This document shows positions 1,252-14,163 of a stretch of DNA of 29,115 nucleotides, in pieces (the stretch's first letter is position 1; every line of letters starts with the position of its first letter). Both the position numbers and the translations under genes were made by a program. The notes below the pieces were generated by a model that saw only the letters and a list, made by a program, of their open reading frames with translations, did not search any database and had not been told where the DNA came from. Source of the DNA: a virus; IMG/VR virus record IMGVR_UViG_3300037882_000568, positions 1-29,115 of that record; one strand, written 5' to 3'.

Positions 1252-1722
1252 ATGAGTTACACAGACATCTTCTCAAATGACCCATCAGGTCTTTCTATGG
1301 GTATGCCTACAGTCAGCCCATCAAATATGGCAGCGGTTCGAACTCCTATGACTTCAGGTGTGAACCCTCCAAGTCCTGCAACAGGTGCTCCTATGGTAAC
1401 TCCCCAAGGTCAGGGAATTGGCCAAGGTGTGGGTATGGCAAATAACACAGGTCAACCTGGATTCTTCAGCCAAAATGGAGCTGGTCAATTTGCTCTTGGA
1501 GCAATTCAGACTTTGGGTTCTTTGTGGAACAGCTTCCAACAAAACAAAATGGCAAAACAGTCTTTTGATTTTCAAAAGAAAGCTTATGAGACAAATCTTG
1601 CAAACCAAACACAGAACTACAACACTGAGCTTACAGATCGAATTCAAGCTCGATATGCGACTGAAGGTCGTTCAAATGCTGCTGCTGAGGCTGCTGCATA
1701 TGTTGAAAAGAACAAGCTATAA
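1252..1722 (+). CDS. Small virion protein (N4 gp52 position)
   Basis: A 156-residue protein starting at an ATG six bases after AGAGG. The first 80 residues are rich in Pro, Gly, Ser and Asn and are probably disordered. Around residues 75-90 there is a Gly/Ala-containing amphipathic stretch (FALGAIQTLGSLWNSF). From about 90 to the end the chain is Gln/Asn/Ala-rich and helical, ending in Lys-Asn-Lys-Leu. This combination is common in small inner-capsid or connector-associated proteins of podoviruses, and the gene sits two genes before the virion RNA polymerase, where N4 carries its 16-kDa virion protein gp52. There is no enzyme motif. The virion role is inferred from synteny and composition. 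Confidence 0.75.
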   Translation: MSYTDIFSNDPSGLSMGMPTVSPSNMAAVRTPMTSGVNPPSPATGAPMVTPQGQGIGQGVGMANNTGQPGFFSQNGAGQFALGAIQTLGSLWNSFQQNKMAKQSFDFQKKAYETNLANQTQNYNTELTDRIQARYATEGRSNAAAEAAAYVEKNKL

Positions 1723-1738: not shown

Positions 1739-3778
1739 ATGGCACGTCTGACAATTGAACAGGTTAAAGCCCCAGATTTCTCTGCTTCATCAGAGATGCT
1801 GGCTAGAGCTGGAGAAAGCTTCAATACAGGTGTTGAGAGTGCCAAAGGTATCTTGGATAAATACAACCAAGGCCAACAAGCCAAAGGGGATCAAGCCCTG
1901 ATTGGTGCTCTTGCTGGTTTGAAATCTGAAGATGAATTGTCAAACTTCCTTCAGACAACTGATCTTACATCAGTGAATATCTCAGACAAAATGAAAGAAA
2001 ACATTCTTGGTGCAAGAGCAACTATTCTTGGAAATAATTCAACCAGACAATCGACTCTAAACAATGCAGATTCAAACTCTCGTGCGAATGCTGCTGAAGG
2101 TCGAACTGCTGCTGAATACCTTGATGGTGTGGTAAAACGTGATGAAATGAGAGGTCTTACCTCTTCTTACATTGGTGCTCTTCAAGAAGGTCAACAGTAT
2201 GGTTCTGGTGGTGGTTTGAATGATCGTGAGATCTTGGCCAAAACCATTGAAGCTGAGGCTCGTGGTGAAGGTTACACTGGGAAACTTGCAGTTGGTGCTG
2301 TTGTTCGAAACAGAGCTGCTACAGGTAAATATGGTGGTTCAAGTATTACTGATGTGATCATGAAAGATGGTCAGTTTTCAGCATGGAATGGTGAAACAGG
2401 ATATGCTGGTGGTGAGGGTGCAGTTGATATGAGAAATCTGAGAGTATCAGATGAATCATACGCTGCCGCTGATGCTGTTTTGTCAGGTCAATATGAAGAT
2501 CCGACTGGTGGTGCAACTCATTACTACAACCCAGATAAAGCCACTCCTGCTTGGGGTAGAGGTCAAAATCCTTCAGCCAATCAATGGTCAACCATTGGGA
2601 ATCATGTGTTTGGGAATCCAGATGGAATTCGCCCTCCTGGATCAACTGGCCCTGTTCAAGGGTATGATCCAAGCCGGGTTACATCAAACAATGTTGGTGG
2701 ACAAAAAGCGAGTGACTTTCTTGCTGCTGTAAGTGCATCTACAAAAATGACTCCAGATGAGGCATCCAAACTTCTCACTTCTGTTTTGGATCAACAAAGA
2801 CAGGGTGATGCTGCTATTCAAGCAGCCAATACTGCCATCAAAGAGGCTGAAGCTGCTGGACAGGCACAGGCTTTGGCTGATGCAACCAGAAGTGCAATTT
2901 TGAATACAAACAATCTGTCTGGTGATGCTGTTACCAGAGAGATTCTCAGCTTTGGTGGGGCTTCTCCATCTGCCGTATTGGAAGCTGCTGGACAAAATCG
3001 TGATAAATTTGGTGGAGTTATTTCTCCAAATGTCCCACAAGATCAACAAGTTACAGATGCTCTTGGTAGAACTTCTGCAACTGATGCTACACAAGTTTCA
3101 AATGATCCTATTGTGAGATCTTTTGAAATGGCAAAATCTTTTGATTCATCAAAAGATCTAGGCAAAGATCTTATGAGTGAATTTAATGTTCCCACAGATT
3201 CTGGTCTTGATTCAGTATATGTGGAAAAAACAATCACTCGAATGGCAAATGACGCTGGTGTAACTCCAGGTCAAATGGCTGCAACTTTGTCTCAAACTTC
3301 TCAAGGAAATTTCCAACAATTTAATGATATGTTGGGTGCAGATCCAGGAACAGAGTTTTACTCATCTATCATGAGTTTGAGTAACAATAATTTTGGACAA
3401 GAAGCTTCAGCTTCATATGAAGCTATTCAGAGTGATGCTTCAAAAAGATCAACTGAGAGAGCCTCTGCTGAACTTCAATTGAGTGCAGCATCTTCAAGAG
3501 CTGTAAAGTTTCCTGTTGGTTCAGAGCAAAGAGTTGCTGCTGATGCAGAAGTTGCTGCTTTGAAAGACACTCTTTTGAAAGGTATGACTCCACAAGAAAG
3601 AGAACAAAATCTGAGAGATTATGTTGTCAAAACTGGTATGGGTTCACGTCTTCAAGGACTTGATCCCAACTCTCCTGAGTTTTTCCGAGCAATGGCTCAA
3701 CTTGAGGAAACAGTAAAAGCTGACACAAGTCTCACTCCAAATGAAAAAGAACTTCTCCTTCGAGATATTAGAGGATAA
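1739..3778 (+). CDS. Internal virion protein with SleB-like cell wall hydrolase domain
   Basis: A 679-residue protein; the ATG follows a GGAG ribosome binding site. Residues 1-150 are helical and low in complexity, like phage ejection proteins. Residues about 160-292 form a SleB/Hydrolase_2-type domain. The hallmarks are the IEAEARGEG segment, with Glu173 the likely catalytic acid, then AVGAVVRNRA, QFSAWN, TGGATHYYNP and IGNHVFG. This fold cleaves peptidoglycan in spore-cortex and cell-wall lytic enzymes. The remaining 390 residues are mostly helical, Ala/Ser/Gln-rich and without a known domain. The gene is directly ahead of the virion RNA polymerase, the N4 gp51 slot. The natural reading is a virion-associated murein hydrolase that opens the wall during DNA ejection, rather than the lysis enzyme. 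The domain call is strong; its use at entry is inferred. Confidence 0.85.
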   Translation: MARLTIEQVKAPDFSASSEMLARAGESFNTGVESAKGILDKYNQGQQAKGDQALIGALAGLKSEDELSNFLQTTDLTSVNISDKMKENILGARATILGNNSTRQSTLNNADSNSRANAAEGRTAAEYLDGVVKRDEMRGLTSSYIGALQEGQQYGSGGGLNDREILAKTIEAEARGEGYTGKLAVGAVVRNRAATGKYGGSSITDVIMKDGQFSAWNGETGYAGGEGAVDMRNLRVSDESYAAADAVLSGQYEDPTGGATHYYNPDKATPAWGRGQNPSANQWSTIGNHVFGNPDGIRPPGSTGPVQGYDPSRVTSNNVGGQKASDFLAAVSASTKMTPDEASKLLTSVLDQQRQGDAAIQAANTAIKEAEAAGQAQALADATRSAILNTNNLSGDAVTREILSFGGASPSAVLEAAGQNRDKFGGVISPNVPQDQQVTDALGRTSATDATQVSNDPIVRSFEMAKSFDSSKDLGKDLMSEFNVPTDSGLDSVYVEKTITRMANDAGVTPGQMAATLSQTSQGNFQQFNDMLGADPGTEFYSSIMSLSNNNFGQEASASYEAIQSDASKRSTERASAELQLSAASSRAVKFPVGSEQRVAADAEVAALKDTLLKGMTPQEREQNLRDYVVKTGMGSRLQGLDPNSPEFFRAMAQLEETVKADTSLTPNEKELLLRDIRG

Positions 3779-3807: not shown

Positions 3808-6800
3808 ATGGTTGATACACCCAATTACACCAACTCTCCTCTGGCAAATCCCAAATTCCTTGAAAACAGTAGTCTGACACCTAAAGTGTCAGATTACTCT
3901 TCATCAAAATTGGCTGATCCCAGGTTTCAAGCTGAAGTTGCTGCAAAAGAAGTTGCTCCAAAGCAACTTTCTCTTGAGGAACAGAAACTTGAGTTGCAGC
4001 GTGAAGCTGCTTCATTGGATGATCGTTCTGCTGGACAGATTCTTTCAGACTCTTTGATCTCTGGAACCAATGCTGCTGTGAGTGGTTTGCTGTCGATTGG
4101 TGGTATTATTGATAAAGGTATCGGTGCTGCTGTTGAATACTCAGCTCCCGAAGGATCTTTGACAAAGGATTTTGGTGGTCTTCTGAATGATAATGCCATG
4201 CGTGTTGCTTCAGAAATGACTGATAGCTTCACTGGTTTTACTGATTCATTCAAATCAGATACGGCAAAAAGAAGTGCTGAGATTCAAGGTGAAATCTCTG
4301 CAATCGACAATGAAGTAAACAAACAACAGTATGAACAAGATATTGCATCTGGTGACAGTGAGTTCATTTCCAGCCTAAGCTTGTATGGTCGTCAAGCTAT
4401 TGATTTCGCTGATCGAACTTTGAGTGATCCAGTCGCTTCAGGTGAATTGGTTTCCAATGCAGTTGGTTCTCTTGCTTCTGGTTCAGTGCTTTCCAAGATT
4501 GGGACCAAAATTGCAACAGGTGTTGCTGAACGTTTTGGTATTGAAGGTGTGAAACGTTTAGGCTTGGAGTATGGTGGTTCTGCTTTAGGTATGGGTGTGA
4601 CTGAAGCATCTTCTACTTACACGTCTACAGTCTCTGAAGTCATGGGTAGAACCCCTGAACAAATGACTTCATCTGATATGTATCAAGAGCTTATTGCTCT
4701 GGGTATGACCCATGAAGAAGCTCAAACAAAGGTAGCAGATTCTGCTGGTTTGGATGCTTTTGTAAATCAGCTTCCTGCTGCAATGACTGCTGGGCTTTTG
4801 AGTGCCAAATTCAACGCCAATCCTCTTTCTACAATGCGTGGTGAAAACCCTCTAGGAGTGTTTATCACTGCTGGGAAAGAAGCTATGGAAGAGGCTGCTC
4901 AAGGTGCTTCAGGCCAGTATAACCAAAACTATGCCATCAAAGATTATGTAGATCCTACACAAGATCTAAGTGAAGGTGTGGTTGATCAAGCTGTTGGTGG
5001 TTTGTTGGGTGGTTTTGCTTCATCTGGCATCATTGGTGCTCCTTCAGGTGTTATGAATGGTCTTCAAGAACAAACTGAAAGAATCAGATCAGAAGTAGCC
5101 TATGATCGTTTTGTCAAAGGTATAGGTGATCAGATTGCTGAGAGTCATCGTGTCAATGAATTGAATCGAATGACTCCAGGAGAACGTGATTCAAATCTTC
5201 GTTCTGCTTTTACACAAACCTCCCCTGGAGAGGATCTGTTCAACTCAGTCATTGGTAAAGGAGCTGAAGCTCTAAATGCCCTCAAAGAAGGTGCTCAGAC
5301 GCTCTCTGAGAGTGATGCACTGGGTAAGACTGTGGAAGGTATCAAAACAGGTGTGCAGGCTGTAAAACAGGCTGCTACGCCAATTGTGAATGAAGTCATC
5401 AAGACTGCCCAAAATTACGTGGATAAACCAAATCCTGTTATCCAAAATGAGATCATTACTGCTGCACAAGAAGTGTCTGTGGCTGTGAATGATCCTGCTG
5501 TGGAAACAGGAGATCTTGGAAAACCAGATGAATCAATCACAAAAGATATTGTTCCTGAGTTCTTCAAAGAAACTGTCACTGAAGGTTCGAACATTGCAGA
5601 TACTATGGTCAGTATTGTCCAGACCCTTGCTGACAAGAAAGTTCCAATTTCAGAGATGAAAGATGATGCTGTTTTGTTTGTGACTGAAAAGTTCAACCAA
5701 ATGCAAAATGCTGCATCAGCTTTGTCTCCTGAAGTGAAAGCCAAAGTGAAAAAGGTTTTGGCTTCTCCTGATCTTGAGCGCATTCGTAAACGTGCTGCTC
5801 GATTGGATTTGAACACATTTATCAGTCCAACGATTGAAAGAGTTTCATCTCTCGTCAAAGGAATGACTGTATCTATGAGCAGAGTGAATCCATCAAATGT
5901 AAATCCTGATGTGGTGGATAAAATCCTAAAACAGGAATATCGTGGTGATCTTTCTCCTCAAGATGTTAAATCATTGGAAGTAGCTGCAAGCGTTACTCGT
6001 CCAATGAATAACTACATCAAAAACATTGTCAAAATTCAAGATGACAAAAATGCTTTCTTGGTTTCAACAGGACAAGTTCCTGATAAAACTGAGAATTCAG
6101 TTGAAGCTGTGTCTCGTAAGATCCTTGAAGGTGGGAAAACAAACCAAGAAAAGCTTCCTTCTGTGAAAACTTTTGCAAACCAAATCATTGTTGGAATGCA
6201 GTCTTCAGACCAATCTATTGATACAGGTGATACTCGTATTCCTGTTAAACAAGTTGCCCAACAGTTTGGTAGGTTGGTTCAACATATGACCAACAAAGTG
6301 AATGCTTTGAATGCTTCATTTGACAAGAGAGATCAAAATGGGGTTGGCCCAGTAGTAGTGTTTGACACACTGGTCAATGGAAAATTCATTAAAGCTGGTA
6401 TGGCTGGATCGAAATCAGCAAATTACAGCACTCGTTCAATCAACAGCACATCGTTTGCAAAGACTGTAGCTGCTGATGCTACTGTCATGGGTGAAATTTA
6501 CAATGCCTTGGTTTCAGCTTACCCTGAACTATTTCCAAATGGGGTTGTGACCATTCCTGTTTTGAAAACGTTGGATGCACCTGTGCAAACAAATACTCAA
6601 GAAATTGAAGATCAAAAACAAAACACAACGGCAGACGAAGAGACTTTGGCGGCAGCCAAAGTCGATGAGTCTGCTGAAACAAACTCAAAAATGAAGACCC
6701 TATTTGATGATTTGCTTGAAGATGCAATGAAGACAATCGAAGAAGGTGATCCTGAAATCTCAATCAGAATCACATCATCAAATGAGTTTTTTGATTATGT

Positions 6801-9800
6801 ATCAAACAACCCACTCACACAAAGAGTAGGTGGAGATAGAGCATATTTCCTTCATGAAAAAGTGGTTCAGTATTTGGGAATTGAAACTCAAACTGAACAA
6901 ACAACAGAAGAAGCACCTCAAACAACGGCTGTCGAGGACACGACCCTGGTCGTGTCTGAGACGCCTGAATCAAATGAAACAAAACCATTATCAGATACAA
7001 AAGAAAATTCTTTGACCATTTCTACTGATGATTCTCAAATTACTGAATCAGTAAAAGAGAGAAAACCTGTTTCTGATAATCAAATCCAAGGTAAAGTCAG
7101 TGATCGCTTTGGTTCAGTATTCTATCCAAAGAAGACCCTAGCAAAATCTGCTGAAGAACTATTGGCTCAGATCTCAGAACAACCAGGTTCTGAGAACTAT
7201 GTCACATTCTCTGAAGTCCTTTTGGATCGAATTTCAAGAGCAATGAATGCACGTCTTCAATCTGTGTTGGTCAGCAAAGCTGATGGAAGAACTCTTGCTC
7301 AAGCTTTGAAAGAAACTCCAGATACTCTTATGGAAATAAGAGACTTCAAACCTTTGATGATCGTAGATCCTGATACAGGTATCTACGACCAAAAGCTTTT
7401 GAATCTGGCTTCAATGGCTGTCATCGACTGGATGACAACTGCAAGACCATATGGTGTTGATCGTGTAGATGATCTTTTGAAAGAACTTGGATTGGTTGGA
7501 AATGATCTGACCGAAGAACAAATTCGTCTGATGTTTTCCAGTGTTCCAACAAGAACAACAACTGAATCTTTGGCGAGAAAAGTCATCAAGCTTTGGAATG
7601 TTCAGCCAAACAAAATGGCTCAAATGGTAGACATTCGAGGCACAACAGAAGGTCTCGTAAAAGAAATCTTCACAGTCCTAAGTGAGATGGAAGATTCTCT
7701 CGTGAAAGTGAGAGAGATCAAAGTTGGTAAGGGTTATGCAACCACATTTGATATTTCTGCTCTAAAAGCAGAACAGACAGACATTGGTCTTGCTGCTCTT
7801 GGATCATTGGACAAACTGATGTTTCCTGAAGACAAAATTATGATCTCGTTTGGTGAGAAAATTTCTCATGTAGACTCAGCCCAAAACAACAAACCTGATG
7901 TTCGTTTGACTGAAATGGAACGTAAAGCTTTGAAGAACATGCAGGACATTCCCCATACTGAGGCAGTGCCTGTGGTTTCATTCTTCAAAGCTTTGGGATT
8001 GGAATCATGGTCTTCAATGGTTGGAAAAAGAGATTCTTCTAAACTGGCAAAGCGTCATTCTTTGAGACTCACGATTGAAGGTAAAAATCTATCAATCGAA
8101 CGTGACTTTGAAGATGCTTTGGAAGTAGTGAATACTGCTTCTGGGAAAGAAGTATTCTATCCATTTGGTATTACCAATGTTGGTCGTCACCAAATGAGAG
8201 GTATCAATCCTCAGAACAATAAAGTTCTGAGAGCAATGATGACACCTACTCATGCAAAATTGGATATGGTGAACAACCAAAAGCACAAAGATGCTTTCTG
8301 GCTGACTGTTGTTCAATCTTCTGAAATTGCAAAGGTTGAGAAGAAAGATCACACAAAGATCCTGTCAACTGTGCAAGAAGAATTCAACCAAAAATTTGGA
8401 GAAGCCACAGCCATTGCTGTGACTTTCTTTGAAACAGGTTCTCTTAACTCATCAGCCTTCGCTGAAGCGATGCTGAGAGCGTCTAAAGGTGCAGAAGTCA
8501 CTGTGGCTCAGGTAAACGCTGTGATCGCTGTAGCACGTCTCCAGCAGGCTCAGAAAGCAGGGACTGCTAACAGCTTTGAGACATCTCTTAGTTTTGAACT
8601 AGACGGTAAGACTGATGGTGCTGCCAATATGATGGCTGCCTTTGGTCAAGGCATTATGACTATGATGGAATACATGAACTTCAAACGTGTTGGTTTCTTC
8701 CTTGGATCCAATGGAGAAACTCTGAATACATTTCTAAGTGAAAACCAGGATTTGTATGAAGTAAACTCGTTTGTTGCGACAAGAGCTTTGAACAAAAGGA
8801 TAAGTGAAGCTACGGGTTTGGACAGAAAACGTCTGATTGCTCTTCAAAGATTTGCCTACCATTTTGGAGATCTGACGATCAACTCAAATGGTGAGATCGA
8901 ACTGAGTCGTGCTTCATCCAAAAATCCAATGACCAAAAAAGTTTATGGGTCTTTGGAAAAAGGTATCGCTGAAGGTATTTCTCAAGACATGGTAATTGAG
9001 TTTTACAATCAACTCACCAATCTTCCTGATGGGGTGACTGTAGAAGATCATTTGAATTACCAAGAGATTAATGAAGATCTCCAGTTTTTATTTGGAACAA
9101 AGCTTCCTGCAAAATTGGATGTGAATGATTTTATTCTACCTTGGTCTTCAATGGCTCCATTCTCAGACTTTGTGAAATCGACCTTTGGAGAAATTCTAAG
9201 TGACTCAATCAATGGTGTTATGAGTGAAAAAACCATTGGTGTGAATGATCTGTTGGTATTTACCACAGGTGTTCAAGGTGAATTCATGAAGCTGTATTTT
9301 GAACAGCGTCTGGCTGAAGCTATGGGAGAATTGACTGAAGAATTTGGTCAAAGTGAAAACCAGAAAAAAGGTAAACCCACTCTTCGGAAAATGAGTCAAG
9401 AAAGATACGATGCAATTGTCAAAGAGACTTTAGCTTTTGCTCCATACTTCTCAGATGGTCTTCAAAATCTTCGTATTGGTGATTTTACAGGTCAACAAGA
9501 TGACACTGAAATGAGTTCAAACCTGAATGGAAACATTCGGGCTAAATCTACCATGCAAAAGCCTGATGATATCGGGGTGAAAGGTATCCCATATGTGATC
9601 CAGGGTCGTGGTGATGCCATGATGATGAATCGTATCTTCAGTGCAGATAACTCACCTAAAAAAGCGATTCCAATCTTCGATGGTATTGACCTTTCAATTA
9701 CAGATTTCAGTGATTTGAGTAATCAAATCAACGAAGCTGTTTTGGAAAACTGGGATCATGATGTGCTTGGACCAGTAAAAGATAACTTTGACAGGTTCCT

Positions 9801-12800
9801 AAAACTGGTTCAAGATGAAGGTCTCGAAGACAAACTATTCTCTGCTTTTGCAGTGATGAAAAAGAACTCAAAAAACAAAAACCAAATCAGAGCATACAAG
9901 CCAAATGATTTGGTAGATCTGCTGGCTAATGCCAAAAAATTGAATCAAGCTCGTAAAGCTGTGTTCAAAAAGATCACTGTTTCTGTGGATCATATGGGTG
10001 GATCTGGTCAATCATTTGTAAGAAATGTTGATGGTAAAACTCTGTCATTTGAAGAAATCAATACGATGATTCAAAATGAATTGAGTGGTCAAAGTGATTT
10101 GATTGAATCAACAGTTGTGACTGAAGAGGTTCAAAAGGATCAGACTATTGAACCATCATTGGTAGTTACTGATGTTGCTACAATGACGGATTCTTTGATG
10201 AGAGAATCAAAACCATATCTTCGTGATGTTGTCAGATCCATTCGTGGAATGATGTCAACTGATGCTCTTATAGTTATGGGAACTGAAGAAGAGATCAATG
10301 CTTGGAGAGGTGAAAACCTCAATAAGTCAGGCAACAAACTGGAACAAAAAACCAGTGGATATTACGATGTTGAGAACAACATCATTTTCATTCTGAGTGA
10401 TAATCCTGAAACTATCGTCCATGAGATGATTCATATGGCAACTTTCCAAGCTGTGCTTGATCACTACAATAATGTGAAAAAGTCTACGGCTGTGAAGAAC
10501 CTTGAAGTGTTGATGGAAGAATTTCTGGCTTTGGATACATCGACCATGAGTGCAGAAGCTCAAGATGTGTATCTGAATGCTAAAGTAACCATTGTAAAAG
10601 GAAAATCTGAATCAACATCTATGGGTGATGCTATTGCTTTGAATGAGTTTATGGCTTGGTCTTTGGCCAATGAATCCCTGATGAAAGAGCTTAAACAGAC
10701 TCCAACATCTTTGATTGCTCGTCTTACAAAAGCTGCCAAAGCCTGGATCCAAAAAATCTTGAATGTTGTCCCTCAAGACATGTATTCGAACATTCTGTTC
10801 AACACAGAAATGCTTCATAATGATGAATTTCCTGGTGGGTTTGAAAATGTTTTTGAAAACGAAAACACATCTGGAGAAGTGACCCCTTCAGCAGATAAAT
10901 TCACCAATTTTTGGATTGATCTTCTGAAAGAAAAAATTGATGCAATTCAAACAACTTCTTCAGATAGAGTTGACACAATTCTCAAAGGTAAAGCACAAGA
11001 TCAAATTATCAGATACTCAAAGAATGCTGATAAAATTCTGACTCAGCTTGATTTTGCTGGGTTTGGTTTTAGTGAATACCAAAAGAAAACTTTCTCAGCT
11101 ATTCACATGGTCATTGCCATTGAACTACAACTGGAACCAATTACCCTTGTTCAACTGGGTAAAGTCTATGAACATGTGGTCAATAATTTGACTCCTGCAA
11201 TGTTTGGCAAAGGTCAGATTGCTCAAGACCGTTACTCAGCACTTATGAATTTGATGGGTTCAACCAAAAATGACCAAGGCATTTCTGATGCTATTGGTGT
11301 GCTTTTGGCAATGTCTCAGACTTCAACTTTGTTTAGGTCTGCTTTGGATCAAATTCCAAAACCAGATAACCAACAAGGAATTGAAACCACATCTTTGAAT
11401 GATGTTCTGTCATCTTCGACAAGTTTCTTGATGCAGAAACTGGTGGCTTCAACTGATTTGGAAAACAAAGGTGTCAAAAGTATTTTGGATGATTTGAGTG
11501 AAGGTATTCTTCGTCAAGACAATGATACTGAATTCAGAGCATTGAAAACTTTGATGGATACATTCTCCAAAGGAGACAAATTTGTAAATGGTATGCTGTC
11601 AAAACTTGCTCAAAAAACAAGAGAAACAAACCAAGAATTCCAAAGAACAGCCCAAAATGGTGTTCTGAAAACTGTTGCAAACTCAGTGACTTTGGCAACT
11701 CAATTCATGGATGCTAATCTTTCTGCATCAGCAGGTAAAGGAGCAAAAGAGTTCACCCATATGAATGGGATGTTGGATGGTGCTGTGGCAATCAGAGAAT
11801 TGGTGAATGAAATAATCGGTGCTGATTCAATCAATAACAACACCATTCAGATGTTGGACAAAGTGAATTATGTGGTTCAAGGGACTCGTCAAGCATACAG
11901 AGAAGAATTGCCTGTCATTCTTCAAAATGAGTTTGATAATCACCCAACAGCAGAACAATGGAAAAATCTTCACCATGTTTTGGGTAAAACAGATTTTGCT
12001 AGTTTGTTCGATCTGAAAGATCCTGATGCTTCTTTTGATTTGATGAATGATGTTGTTTTTTTGGATCAACGAATTCGTGACCAAGAGAAAAAGATCATGA
12101 AAGCATACCCAAAACTGGGAAGATTGATGCTGACTAAAGCTCAGCAATTGGCAAACTATATGAATGGTAAGGGAGCTGGTTTCCAACTCTTCAAGAATGC
12201 CTATGCCATCCACAAGCTTGTGGGAGGTGATAAGAACGCTATGGTGAAGCAACTGGACATACTGATCAGTCTCTATGCTATATCAGGCTCAGACATCGCT
12301 CAGCGTGAGTCTGTGGCTCGTATGCAAGCAAGTGACCCAAAAGGTGTCCATAATCTTCTGGTTTACATCCAGGCTTTGAACAAAGAGGAAGATCAGAAAG
12401 TTGTTTCTGAGGCTGCCAGAATGAATGGTTACAAAGGATACATTCCTGATCATTCAAAAGGTGAGATCAGTTTGATCATTGCAAAAGACTCAGACAAAGA
12501 GAATCTTTTGAGACGTGGTTACAAACGTATTGAAGACGACACCACATACACTGGTTCCTTGGTTTCTCGTGGGTATTACATGTCCACGGCTAAACAGGCT
12601 GGGAACTACTCTCAGGGCGTCCTTCAACAGGTTCAGGACACCTATAGAGGTGTGAATGCTGTGACTGGTCTTACAGTGAATGGAACCACTTCAGGGGTCA
12701 TCTCAGGCTCTGCTGTGATCACTATTACTGAAGCTTTGAATAATGAGCTTTCAGTGGTTGATGATAAGAATGTTTTGATTCCTGTTTATGATGAAGATGG

Positions 12801-14163
12801 TGGGGTTCTTTACTACGAAAGAGCTTTGAACCCTGACATGATTCAGAAATATCTGGAACCAGAATCAAACATGGCTTTGATGGTTGGTGTTTGGGCTGGT
12901 CGTCAAGTTGAAGAGAAATTTTCTTATGAATACAACAAAGCTCTGGTCACAGAGTTGAAAAAGATTTGGGACAAACGTGAGAAAAACTCTGATGGAATGT
13001 TTGTTCGCATGGATCAGGCTGAGGACAAAATCTATGCTGAGAGTTGGAATGTTATTCCTCCTCAACTAAAGGAACATATCCTAAGTGTATTTGGTGAAGA
13101 GACTGGTTTCATGGTTCGTAAAGACATGATTAACCTGGCTCTCGGATACAGAGATGCTTCAATTACCGATGTTTGGACTGGAAATCATCGTCTTCCTGAA
13201 GGTGTTGAACTGGCTGTAAAAACAATCAGCAAACGCTTCATGGGTGATAAAGGTTTCAGTTGGTTGGGTAATGTTGAGACTTTTGCTATGGACACTATTT
13301 CAGGTGCAAAAGATCTTATTGTTGTGAGATCTTTGGTGGTTCCATTTATGAACACTCAATCGAATGTGTTCCAGCTCGTAAATCGTGGCATTGGAACCAA
13401 AGCAATCATGAAAGGTTACAGAGATAAATTTGTAGAAATTGATCAACTGAATGAGAACCTGAAGAAGATTATGGGTCTTGAGGCTCGTATTCGTTTGGCT
13501 GCCAATGACAAAAACAAGGTAGCCATTTTGAAGCAGCAAATGCAAGTTCTTAAGGATGAGAACAAACGTTTCTCTGTAGCTCCTTTGGTTGAAGCTGGTG
13601 CTTACAAATCAATCTCTGAAGGTATCACTGAACTTGATGTGGCAATCACAAATGGGAGACTTGGGGATTGGTTTGAATCAAAAGTGAGCAAACTTCCTTC
13701 AGGTCTACAAACCACTGTGAAATATGGTTTGTTAAGCAAAGACACTGCCATCTACAAAGGTGCAAACAAAGCTGTTCAGTATGGGGATTTTGTGGCCAAG
13801 AGCATCTATTATGATGATCTTGTATTCAAAGGACTTACCCATGATCAGGCAATGTCAAAAGTGAACGAAGAATTCGTCAACTTTTCTTTGTTGCCTGGAA
13901 GAGCAAGAACATATCTTGAGTCTATGGGTGCTACATGGTTCCTGACTTTCAAAATCAGATCCATGAAAGTGGCTCTTCAAATGATCAGGGATAACCCTGT
14001 TCGATCATTGGCTATGATGAATGTGGTTGGAATTGAGTCAGGGCCAATTACAGATAACGTTCTTTCAAAGTTGGCTGAAGGAACTCTACCATATTCACTG
14101 GGTTGGGATATGCTGTGGGATGCTCCAGGAATGAATCCTTGGGTCACTCTGACATCTGGTTAA
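3808..14163 (+). CDS. Giant virion-encapsidated RNA polymerase (N4 gp50-like) with metallopeptidase-like region
   Basis: At 3451 residues this is close to the N4 virion RNA polymerase (about 3500), which is packaged, injected with the DNA and transcribes early genes from hairpin promoters. The catalytic set is complete. TxxGR is at Thr1456-Arg1460. Motif A is ELDGKTDG with Asp1599. Motif B runs Arg1701, Lys1705, Tyr1713, Gly1714, with the same spacing as T7 Arg627, Lys631, Tyr639. Motif C is IFDGID with Asp1958. Residues 1-900 form an N-terminal region with Gly/Ala-rich hydrophobic patches. An acidic Thr/Glu-rich linker (about 920-1090) precedes the polymerase core. After the core, His2205-Glu-Met-Ile-His2209, followed by NEFMAW about 80 residues on, resembles a zincin metallopeptidase. 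Residues 2300-3451 have no recognised domain; in N4 this part serves packaging or ejection. The start has a GAGGA ribosome binding site. Confidence 0.95.
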   Translation: MVDTPNYTNSPLANPKFLENSSLTPKVSDYSSSKLADPRFQAEVAAKEVAPKQLSLEEQKLELQREAASLDDRSAGQILSDSLISGTNAAVSGLLSIGGIIDKGIGAAVEYSAPEGSLTKDFGGLLNDNAMRVASEMTDSFTGFTDSFKSDTAKRSAEIQGEISAIDNEVNKQQYEQDIASGDSEFISSLSLYGRQAIDFADRTLSDPVASGELVSNAVGSLASGSVLSKIGTKIATGVAERFGIEGVKRLGLEYGGSALGMGVTEASSTYTSTVSEVMGRTPEQMTSSDMYQELIALGMTHEEAQTKVADSAGLDAFVNQLPAAMTAGLLSAKFNANPLSTMRGENPLGVFITAGKEAMEEAAQGASGQYNQNYAIKDYVDPTQDLSEGVVDQAVGGLLGGFASSGIIGAPSGVMNGLQEQTERIRSEVAYDRFVKGIGDQIAESHRVNELNRMTPGERDSNLRSAFTQTSPGEDLFNSVIGKGAEALNALKEGAQTLSESDALGKTVEGIKTGVQAVKQAATPIVNEVIKTAQNYVDKPNPVIQNEIITAAQEVSVAVNDPAVETGDLGKPDESITKDIVPEFFKETVTEGSNIADTMVSIVQTLADKKVPISEMKDDAVLFVTEKFNQMQNAASALSPEVKAKVKKVLASPDLERIRKRAARLDLNTFISPTIERVSSLVKGMTVSMSRVNPSNVNPDVVDKILKQEYRGDLSPQDVKSLEVAASVTRPMNNYIKNIVKIQDDKNAFLVSTGQVPDKTENSVEAVSRKILEGGKTNQEKLPSVKTFANQIIVGMQSSDQSIDTGDTRIPVKQVAQQFGRLVQHMTNKVNALNASFDKRDQNGVGPVVVFDTLVNGKFIKAGMAGSKSANYSTRSINSTSFAKTVAADATVMGEIYNALVSAYPELFPNGVVTIPVLKTLDAPVQTNTQEIEDQKQNTTADEETLAAAKVDESAETNSKMKTLFDDLLEDAMKTIEEGDPEISIRITSSNEFFDYVSNNPLTQRVGGDRAYFLHEKVVQYLGIETQTEQTTEEAPQTTAVEDTTLVVSETPESNETKPLSDTKENSLTISTDDSQITESVKERKPVSDNQIQGKVSDRFGSVFYPKKTLAKSAEELLAQISEQPGSENYVTFSEVLLDRISRAMNARLQSVLVSKADGRTLAQALKETPDTLMEIRDFKPLMIVDPDTGIYDQKLLNLASMAVIDWMTTARPYGVDRVDDLLKELGLVGNDLTEEQIRLMFSSVPTRTTTESLARKVIKLWNVQPNKMAQMVDIRGTTEGLVKEIFTVLSEMEDSLVKVREIKVGKGYATTFDISALKAEQTDIGLAALGSLDKLMFPEDKIMISFGEKISHVDSAQNNKPDVRLTEMERKALKNMQDIPHTEAVPVVSFFKALGLESWSSMVGKRDSSKLAKRHSLRLTIEGKNLSIERDFEDALEVVNTASGKEVFYPFGITNVGRHQMRGINPQNNKVLRAMMTPTHAKLDMVNNQKHKDAFWLTVVQSSEIAKVEKKDHTKILSTVQEEFNQKFGEATAIAVTFFETGSLNSSAFAEAMLRASKGAEVTVAQVNAVIAVARLQQAQKAGTANSFETSLSFELDGKTDGAANMMAAFGQGIMTMMEYMNFKRVGFFLGSNGETLNTFLSENQDLYEVNSFVATRALNKRISEATGLDRKRLIALQRFAYHFGDLTINSNGEIELSRASSKNPMTKKVYGSLEKGIAEGISQDMVIEFYNQLTNLPDGVTVEDHLNYQEINEDLQFLFGTKLPAKLDVNDFILPWSSMAPFSDFVKSTFGEILSDSINGVMSEKTIGVNDLLVFTTGVQGEFMKLYFEQRLAEAMGELTEEFGQSENQKKGKPTLRKMSQERYDAIVKETLAFAPYFSDGLQNLRIGDFTGQQDDTEMSSNLNGNIRAKSTMQKPDDIGVKGIPYVIQGRGDAMMMNRIFSADNSPKKAIPIFDGIDLSITDFSDLSNQINEAVLENWDHDVLGPVKDNFDRFLKLVQDEGLEDKLFSAFAVMKKNSKNKNQIRAYKPNDLVDLLANAKKLNQARKAVFKKITVSVDHMGGSGQSFVRNVDGKTLSFEEINTMIQNELSGQSDLIESTVVTEEVQKDQTIEPSLVVTDVATMTDSLMRESKPYLRDVVRSIRGMMSTDALIVMGTEEEINAWRGENLNKSGNKLEQKTSGYYDVENNIIFILSDNPETIVHEMIHMATFQAVLDHYNNVKKSTAVKNLEVLMEEFLALDTSTMSAEAQDVYLNAKVTIVKGKSESTSMGDAIALNEFMAWSLANESLMKELKQTPTSLIARLTKAAKAWIQKILNVVPQDMYSNILFNTEMLHNDEFPGGFENVFENENTSGEVTPSADKFTNFWIDLLKEKIDAIQTTSSDRVDTILKGKAQDQIIRYSKNADKILTQLDFAGFGFSEYQKKTFSAIHMVIAIELQLEPITLVQLGKVYEHVVNNLTPAMFGKGQIAQDRYSALMNLMGSTKNDQGISDAIGVLLAMSQTSTLFRSALDQIPKPDNQQGIETTSLNDVLSSSTSFLMQKLVASTDLENKGVKSILDDLSEGILRQDNDTEFRALKTLMDTFSKGDKFVNGMLSKLAQKTRETNQEFQRTAQNGVLKTVANSVTLATQFMDANLSASAGKGAKEFTHMNGMLDGAVAIRELVNEIIGADSINNNTIQMLDKVNYVVQGTRQAYREELPVILQNEFDNHPTAEQWKNLHHVLGKTDFASLFDLKDPDASFDLMNDVVFLDQRIRDQEKKIMKAYPKLGRLMLTKAQQLANYMNGKGAGFQLFKNAYAIHKLVGGDKNAMVKQLDILISLYAISGSDIAQRESVARMQASDPKGVHNLLVYIQALNKEEDQKVVSEAARMNGYKGYIPDHSKGEISLIIAKDSDKENLLRRGYKRIEDDTTYTGSLVSRGYYMSTAKQAGNYSQGVLQQVQDTYRGVNAVTGLTVNGTTSGVISGSAVITITEALNNELSVVDDKNVLIPVYDEDGGVLYYERALNPDMIQKYLEPESNMALMVGVWAGRQVEEKFSYEYNKALVTELKKIWDKREKNSDGMFVRMDQAEDKIYAESWNVIPPQLKEHILSVFGEETGFMVRKDMINLALGYRDASITDVWTGNHRLPEGVELAVKTISKRFMGDKGFSWLGNVETFAMDTISGAKDLIVVRSLVVPFMNTQSNVFQLVNRGIGTKAIMKGYRDKFVEIDQLNENLKKIMGLEARIRLAANDKNKVAILKQQMQVLKDENKRFSVAPLVEAGAYKSISEGITELDVAITNGRLGDWFESKVSKLPSGLQTTVKYGLLSKDTAIYKGANKAVQYGDFVAKSIYYDDLVFKGLTHDQAMSKVNEEFVNFSLLPGRARTYLESMGATWFLTFKIRSMKVALQMIRDNPVRSLAMMNVVGIESGPITDNVLSKLAEGTLPYSLGWDMLWDAPGMNPWVTLTSG
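6642..6663. repeat. Perfect 9-bp inverted repeat in the polymerase linker
   Basis: GACTTTGGC (6642-6650) and GCCAAAGTC (6655-6663) are perfect inverted copies around a GGCA loop. They lie inside the virion RNA polymerase gene, where it encodes the acidic linker near residue 945. The surrounding DNA is A-rich, so the GC-rich stem stands out. Confidence 0.6.
6937..6956. repeat. Second perfect 9-bp inverted repeat in the polymerase linker
   Basis: GACACGACC (6937-6945) and GGTCGTGTC (6948-6956) are perfect inverted copies separated by two bases; in practice an 8-bp stem with a CCTG loop. It encodes part of the same acidic linker, near residue 1045, about 290 bases after the previous inverted repeat. 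Confidence 0.6.

Follow-up and report, generated by a model that had tools for sequence, protein, structure and literature searches.

We found that the virion RNA polymerase (vRNAP) of an N4-like phage carries, behind its polymerase part, a domain with an HExxH motif and a distant glutamate, and its predicted fold, its motif and its conservation mark it as a zincin-type metallopeptidase domain. The gene lies in the window, by which we mean the whole 29,115-base virus record analyzed here, which comes from a member of the Schitoviridae. The metallopeptidase domain probably works during infection, and we lean toward the reading that it is a zinc endopeptidase that is packaged without processing and acts after ejection, in which zinc binding, proteolysis and their timing are what we infer. 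Since the domain was published by Iyer et al. in 2017, who joined a strongly conserved HEXXH stretch of the N4 vRNAP, aa 2130 to 2448, to zincin-like metallopeptidases (PMC5512222), and by Bellis et al. in 2025, who solved the N4 C1 structure (residues 2124 to 2375) and noted its conserved HExxH (PMC12633501), the finding itself is not new. New here are the homologous domain in the phiKMV/LUZ19 ejection protein gp37, the low cysteine content of the carriers, and a point about EDTA in the purification of the N4 vRNAP.

The vRNAP gene and the domain behind its polymerase part

Matches of the window to a phage DNA collection, from which records very near to it may have been left out, were short, with one in each of seven records. 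The long open reading frame of the window matched PHROG 2206, virion RNA polymerase, with 2111 bits over aa 131 to 3449, and in its product three Pfam domains of the vRNAP or N4 RNAP kind passed the cut-off. A scan for relatives with the polymerase domain of this one protein gave only three loci. This full-length similarity and these polymerase domains place the protein in the family of N4 gp50, the Schitoviridae vRNAP, as does the gene order, in which the vRNAP gene adjoins ejection genes of the gp51 and gp52 types whose products have no cysteine (Table 1). The cell wall hydrolase domain of the gp51-position protein is PF07486 (E 8.5e-23; window 2264 to 2611, plus strand), whereas no Pfam domain was found at E 0.01 in N4 gp51 or LIT1 gp72. 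Public records name several vRNAPs as metallopeptidase, DNA polymerase, translation initiation factor 2 or gram positive anchor domain protein.

Table 1. Positions of the features discussed in the text
Feature	Record	Positions	Strand	Evidence or remark
N4 gp52-position protein, 156 aa, no cysteine	window	1252..1722	+	position; PHROG 2646, uncharacterized family
N4 gp51-position protein, 679 aa, no cysteine	window	1739..3778	+	cell wall hydrolase domain, aa 176-291
Virion RNA polymerase (vRNAP) gene	window	3808..14163	+	3,451 aa, without internal stop, no cysteine; ORF and translation, PHROG, Pfam
Pfam vRNAP_dom_2, polymerase part	window	7918..8238 (aa 1371-1477)	+	E 1.5e-9
Pfam vRNAP_dom, end of polymerase part	window	9577..9999 (aa 1924-2064)	+	E 6e-35
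Polymerase-to-zincin stretch, including probable linker	window	10000..10167 (aa 2065-2120)	+	end of Pfam domain to start of confident model
Zincin-type metallopeptidase domain, equivalent of N4 vRNAP C1	window	10168..10821 (aa 2121-2338)	+	AlphaFold2, PDB profile match, fold match
E2201, four residues before HExxH	window	10408..10410	+	near-universal in vRNAPs, variable in other carriers
HEMIH (aa 2205-2209): predicted zinc ligands H2205 and H2209, predicted general base E2206	window	10420..10434	+	helix aa 2200-2220 of model
NEFMAW (aa 2279-2284): predicted third zinc ligand E2280	window	10642..10659	+	helix aa 2271-2287 of model
N2288, Asn eight residues past the Glu	window	10669..10671	+	invariant in 14 divergent vRNAPs
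LUZ19 gp37	L140	3259-7272		HExxH...Glu domain; sequence in solved chain 9sfn_G

An earlier note on this DNA had reported HEMIH at aa 2205 to 2209, a hydrophobic strand ahead of it and NEFMAW about 80 residues on, within window positions 10381 to 10680, and had read these as a zincin domain behind the polymerase, of the kind found in phage polyvalent proteins. The observation is confirmed. HEMIH is present at that place and is the sole HExxH in the window vRNAP, for which 0.019 would be expected from composition; the strand is at aa 2192 to 2195 of the predicted model; E2280 of NEFMAW is 75 residues past the first His; and HEMIH and E2280 both lie inside that interval. Fold, profile comparison and conservation back the zincin-type assignment, so the interpretation as a whole is partly supported; in its functional part, a putative protease might process the giant protein during ejection or cut host proteins.

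The AlphaFold2 model of aa 2101 to 2345, built with 64 relatives, had a pLDDT of 89.8 and a pTM of 0.86. As in zincins, a strand is followed by the HExxH helix, and E2280, at a position where Glu is conserved, sits on a later helix, the place that Iyer et al. describe for the third-ligand glutamate of these peptidases (PMC5512222). When we compared the model with solved structures using VIA-align, the best matches were the N4 vRNAP entries 9pnt (Z 11.2) and 9pnr (Z 11.1), followed by anthrax lethal factor (Z 8.4, rmsd 6.5, 170 residues aligned, about 10% identity) and PPEP-3 (Z 5.9, 154 aligned). The zincin scores outside the phages are moderate, and a VIA-align Z below 8 may reflect a common arrangement, so the peptidase fold match is credible because the motif agrees with it. 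The lethal factor matches are repeated entries of a single protein, one of which, 1jky, was aligned elsewhere, at residues 59 to 261; some of the peptidase entries in the VIA-align list hold zinc or inhibitors. Foldseek gave the two N4 vRNAP entries at E 2e-6 and 4e-6, whereas lethal factor reached only E 0.05. Searched against the predicted viral structures of BFVD, the model hit vRNAPs and, with E 1.8e-4, a large polyvalent protein; weaker hits were to internal core proteins (E 1.9e-3 and 2.4e-2) and to crAss-like proteins (E 3.2e-3 and weaker).

The profile of the 65-row alignment A2 matched the N4 vRNAP in the PDB at E 2e-80. In the structure comparison, which the earlier note had proposed along with the profile comparison, N4 C1 came first, with lethal factor and PPEP next. 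The N4 and window domains are alike in their place behind the polymerase, fold, HExxH and NEFMAW, and differ in position (HELVH at 2228 and NEFMAW at 2309 in N4 gp50, with H2228 and E2229 as the equivalents of the window residues, versus 2205 and 2279 in the window) and in sequence, with about 30% identity over the domain in the N4 comparison row (L032, an N4-sized contig). For the window's domain, all Pfam and NCBIfam models stayed below their cut-offs. The HExxH stretch has a weak SprT-like match (E 0.06 in the window; 0.1 or better in 17 of 65 members), DUF5700, a putative zinc peptidase, was matched by three members (best E 9e-5), PHROG 87, metallo-protease, was also matched by three, and the uncharacterized families PHROG 1365 and PHROG 1233 matched the domain weakly.

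The nearest folds outside phages are thus zinc peptidases of the lethal-factor/PPEP type (family M34), which have a catalytic Tyr seven residues before the Glu. No M34 chain was found up to E 10 with the A2 profile against the PDB, the likeness to M34 being one of fold match. In the window vRNAP, this Tyr position is occupied by G2273; Tyr is missing there in at least 63 of 65 A2 rows and in all 8 rows of alignments A5 and A6, and is present in 8 of 15 rows of alignment A4. A larger gap between HExxH and Glu also separates the vRNAP domain from these enzymes. Because the M34-type Tyr is missing in most vRNAPs, we do not file the domain in M34, and a non-catalytic role keeps some weight.

Iyer et al. 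defined 12 clades of MPTase domains and named the N4 vRNAP domain among those of polyvalent proteins (PMC5512222), and a 2021 review repeats the N4 assignment and finds the domain in Cbunavirus (PMC8472413). Related carriers found in this work hold LPD38, LPD39, SLT or DarB-like regions. By analogy, the window vRNAP may be a multidomain MPTase protein delivered with phage DNA, the domain being seen here beside the polymerase and delivery being taken from the N4 papers.

Conservation of the active-site residues among vRNAPs

Loss of the motif in relatives had been named beforehand as the evidence that would speak against the proposal. We found that HExxH is kept in every vRNAP that covers the domain and was recruited without use of the motif. 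According to Iyer et al., N4-like RNAPs are "always," and elsewhere in the same paper "almost always," fused to such a metallopeptidase domain (PMC5512222).

In the first search of IMG/VR, 73 of 74 loci had one HExxH within the domain, and the exception, L074, starts inside the domain at a contig end. The search word ALNEFMAW is present in all 74 loci, so HExxH alone is independent evidence there, and we discarded the conservation of NEFMAW among them as circular. A tblastn search with the polymerase part matched 298 phage records, of which 60 were listed, and from these we took 11 divergent vRNAPs (LIT1, LUZ7, ZC03, Pantoea G19, Vibrio 1.026, Pylas, Salmonella UTK0002, pVa5, phi50-12, VBP47 and EK8). 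All 11 have exactly one HExxH and also carry Glu in a similar second motif, and 6 of them were missed at E 10 by the sequence profile of the loci gathered by then. Among 49 IMG/VR loci recruited by polymerase alignment, 31 of whose contigs are also among the first 74 loci by comparison of the listings, HExxH was at the expected place in 48, and the remaining locus, L130, ends before the domain. The Glu is kept in 47 of these loci, as NEF, NEY, DEF or GEF, and lies 70 to 93 residues past the first His where measured. Shigella phage pSb-1 is represented by L106, in which the frame is lost soon after HExxH; its vRNAP (L090, 649-11437) is annotated as three ORFs, through either a sequencing error or a real loss of frame.

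We aligned 14 vRNAPs, namely, that of the window, the 11 divergent ones, and those of EcP1 and Littlefix, which came from the tblastn search with the gp37 stretch described below. Only 5 of 202 columns were invariant, and these were the H, E and H of the motif, the distant Glu and the Asn eight residues after it, so that the active-site quartet outlasts almost all other columns. Since the segments were cut around HExxH, the H, E and H columns are fixed by construction, while the distant Glu and the Asn are not. N2288 is also kept in 64 of 65 A2 rows. E2201 is kept in all 65 A2 rows and in 10 of the 11 divergent vRNAPs (not in ZC03); outside the vRNAPs, its counterpart is absent in LUZ19, Parlo and LIMElight and present in Xanthomonas S3 and SonariX. 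Ahead of the domain, aa 2101 to 2127 face gaps in most A2 rows, a variable length that is shown only in part because the rows are cut nearby.

A homologous domain in gp37 and the cysteine content of the carriers

Searching the PDB with the A2 profile also found chain 9sfn_G, a 1,337-aa "Internal virion protein," at E 3.1e-5, with the motifs HEAVH and VKELVAWGLT. The corresponding stretch of 9sfn_G matched 164 phage records by tblastn, 65 of them at 99% or more, including phiKMV-like phages such as LUZ19, where the protein is gp37; among the 50 matches listed, those of lower identity included vRNAPs of schitoviruses, internal virion proteins from Xanthomonas and Pantoea records, and a DarB-like protein. 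In single pairwise profile comparisons, A2 scored 98.4% against the gp37-type group (hhalign), 97.6% against LIT1-type vRNAPs and 90.4% against Vibrio-type vRNAPs. The model of the gp37 domain (pLDDT 78.6) had the N4 vRNAP as its best PDB match (Z 8.1, 193 aligned), followed by lethal factor (Z 7.2) and PPEP-3 (Z 6.0). Entry 9sfn did not appear among the best rows of the fold comparisons, whose structure library has a different cut-off date from that of the sequence set. Thus, the phiKMV/LUZ19 ejection protein gp37 carries a domain homologous to that of the vRNAP. The two proteins share the HExxH...Glu domain, the absence of cysteine and a place in an ejection operon, whereas gp37 is shorter, has no polymerase part and has low sequence identity to the vRNAP.

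A review of ejection proteins equates phiKMV gp37 (1,337 aa) with gp16, and its main text holds no words starting with protease, peptidase, zinc or cysteine (PMC8954989). Among the papers listed by a search mostly outside subscription journals, titles and openings of abstracts named no metallopeptidase in phiKMV gp37, and no Pfam family was found in gp37 at E 0.001.

We also gathered 57 IMG/VR loci with gp37-type carriers (L147 to L203), whose open frames are 1,095 to 2,932 aa long, some of them cut by contig ends. HEAVHAAT was the search word, so only the Glu and the cysteine content of these loci count; we rejected their HExxH as circular evidence (HEAVH in 57 of 57; HEAVHAAT invariant in alignment A7). 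The distant Glu is present in 35 of 35 rows of A7, which holds 35 of 37 non-redundant segments, L190 and L203 having been left out. Four of the 57 carriers were scanned for domains, and these look like polyvalent proteins, with LPD38 or LPD39 in all four and DarB-like regions in three. The DarB-like protein of Serratia phage Parlo (L141, 5431-16725) has 3,764 aa, no cysteine and HExxH at aa 1195 and 2557; past the first of these it has DELLAYGLTD, a sequence of the vRNAP type. A hypothetical protein of Enterobacter phage SonariX (L143, 1-8921; a record of 248,734 bases, of jumbo size), of which 2,972 aa were read, has no cysteine and a domain very like that of the Escherichia phage EK8 vRNAP.

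Cysteine is absent from the 11 divergent vRNAPs, from those of the window, EcP1 and Littlefix, and from the first 3,342 residues of N4 gp50, an absence already described in N4 and in two roseophages (PMC2784036). Judged by eleven neighboring virion proteins (22 cysteines in 5,168 residues), about 191 would be expected in the 44,777 aa of vRNAP in which we counted none, and about 20 in the 14 gp51- and gp52-position proteins (4,621 aa), which also have none. The word "cysteine" is absent from the main text of Iyer et al. (PMC5512222). LUZ19 gp35, gp36 and gp37 have no cysteine, nor do 53 of the 57 IMG/VR gp37-type carriers, with 6 cysteines in 113,850 aa overall; other mechanical ORFs of at least 200 aa in the same loci have 549 in 53,622 aa, a control that includes non-gene ORFs and in which 55 of 138 ORFs also lack cysteine. 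Proteins not known as ejected can be cysteine-free as well (the partial gp53-position ORF of the window, 412 aa; a hypothetical protein of S3, 581 aa; and three smaller Parlo proteins), and virion proteins are generally cysteine-poor, which speaks against a special meaning of the absence. For this reason, and because the related sequences are not independent, we treat the cysteine counts as descriptive.

A predicted protease and its possible role in phage entry

Among the other explanations of these data, we give most thought to an inactive or purely structural zincin fold, which might serve packaging or hold the C-terminal domain on the polymerase; the metal site would then be no more than a structural clasp. 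The vRNAP C-terminal region is cited as required for encapsidation, which needs no catalysis (PMC5512222); in N4, C1 touches the polymerase in a tight complex, and the whole C-terminal domain inhibits transcription, its role in early transcription being called unknown in the 2025 structural preprint (PMC12633501). The missing lethal-factor/PPEP-type Tyr points the same way. On the other hand, the Glu of a zincin HExxH is the general base and not a metal ligand (PMC5512222), so its retention in every covering vRNAP recruited independently of the motif favors catalysis over a structural metal site, as does the endurance of the whole H, E, H and E quartet among the 14 divergent sequences, and we regard a structural role as possible but unlikely. 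That the HExxH is a chance occurrence has only the length of the 3,451-aa protein in its favor and is excluded by the expectation from composition, the conservation and the fold; we give it practically no credence.

Autoproteolysis was proposed by Iyer et al. for the MPTase domains of polyvalent proteins generally and for phage P1 DdrB in particular (PMC5512222), and the domain might accordingly cut the vRNAP before or during packaging. However, by the account of the same authors, the N4 vRNAP enters the virion unprocessed (PMC5512222), which argues against processing before packaging, and plain inspection of our alignments showed no conserved self-cleavage site beside the domain; we consider this explanation improbable. 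Marginally less probable still is other chemistry on an HExxH scaffold, such as that of the hydroxylase cited by Bellis et al. beside zincins. Radical SAM enzymes are mentioned together with zincins where those authors note the motif (PMC12633501), but the nearest folds besides the N4 vRNAP are peptidases, some with zinc or inhibitors bound, and the third residue is a Glu in a later helix at the measured spacing from the first His, as in the peptidases of Iyer et al. (PMC5512222).

Recombinant full-length N4 vRNAP showed no degradation, and its preparation is described with 0.5 to 1 mM EDTA in lysis, wash, elution and gel filtration (PMC12633501). With EDTA at every purification step described there, the undegraded protein does not test a zinc protease. 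The literature that we covered holds no report of proteolysis or zinc for any vRNAP.

For the reading that we prefer, a zinc endopeptidase acting after ejection, we propose the following sequence of events. The residues from about aa 2121 to 2338 would form a zinc metallopeptidase of the zincin superfamily, with an HExxH helix and a later helix bearing the third-ligand Glu; by established zincin chemistry (PMC5512222), two His and this Glu would hold zinc, and the HExxH Glu would activate water. The vRNAP would be packaged uncut and ejected through the tail; the domain would take up zinc and make a limited cut once the protein had refolded, either in the cytoplasm or at the inner membrane. As targets, the ejected protein (its flexible linkers included) or entry-site partners would be likeliest, with a host protein nearly as likely; Iyer et al. 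had proposed self-processing or host cleavage (PMC5512222). The domain stands behind the polymerase in vRNAPs, at aa 423 of 1,337 in gp37 and at aa 1195 in the Parlo protein. With carrier architectures this different, we would not expect the carriers to have a self-cleavage site in common, and the simplest role for all of them would be to cut flexible linkers close by or partners at the entry site. In N4, the 23-residue linker between the polymerase and C1 is invisible, that is, disordered (PMC12633501), and since the C-terminal domain is inhibitory, a cut there could free the polymerase.

More broadly, we put forward as a speculative and rather doubtful model that different short-tailed phage families share a single metalloprotease module in their entry machinery. 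It would sit in the largest ejected protein (the vRNAP in schitoviruses and the gp16 equivalent in phiKMV-like phages), a protein free of cysteine so as to cross the envelope, and would become active only once refolded with host zinc. The schitovirus module might cut the linker between the polymerase and its inhibitory C-terminal domain, or entry-site proteins, so that proteolysis would control early transcription or channel closure. The value of the present findings lies mainly in the conservation across divergent vRNAPs, the link to phiKMV and the EDTA point. A conserved predicted active site that recurs in the phiKMV-like gp16 equivalent would let a single residue probe whether proteolysis is part of phage entry.
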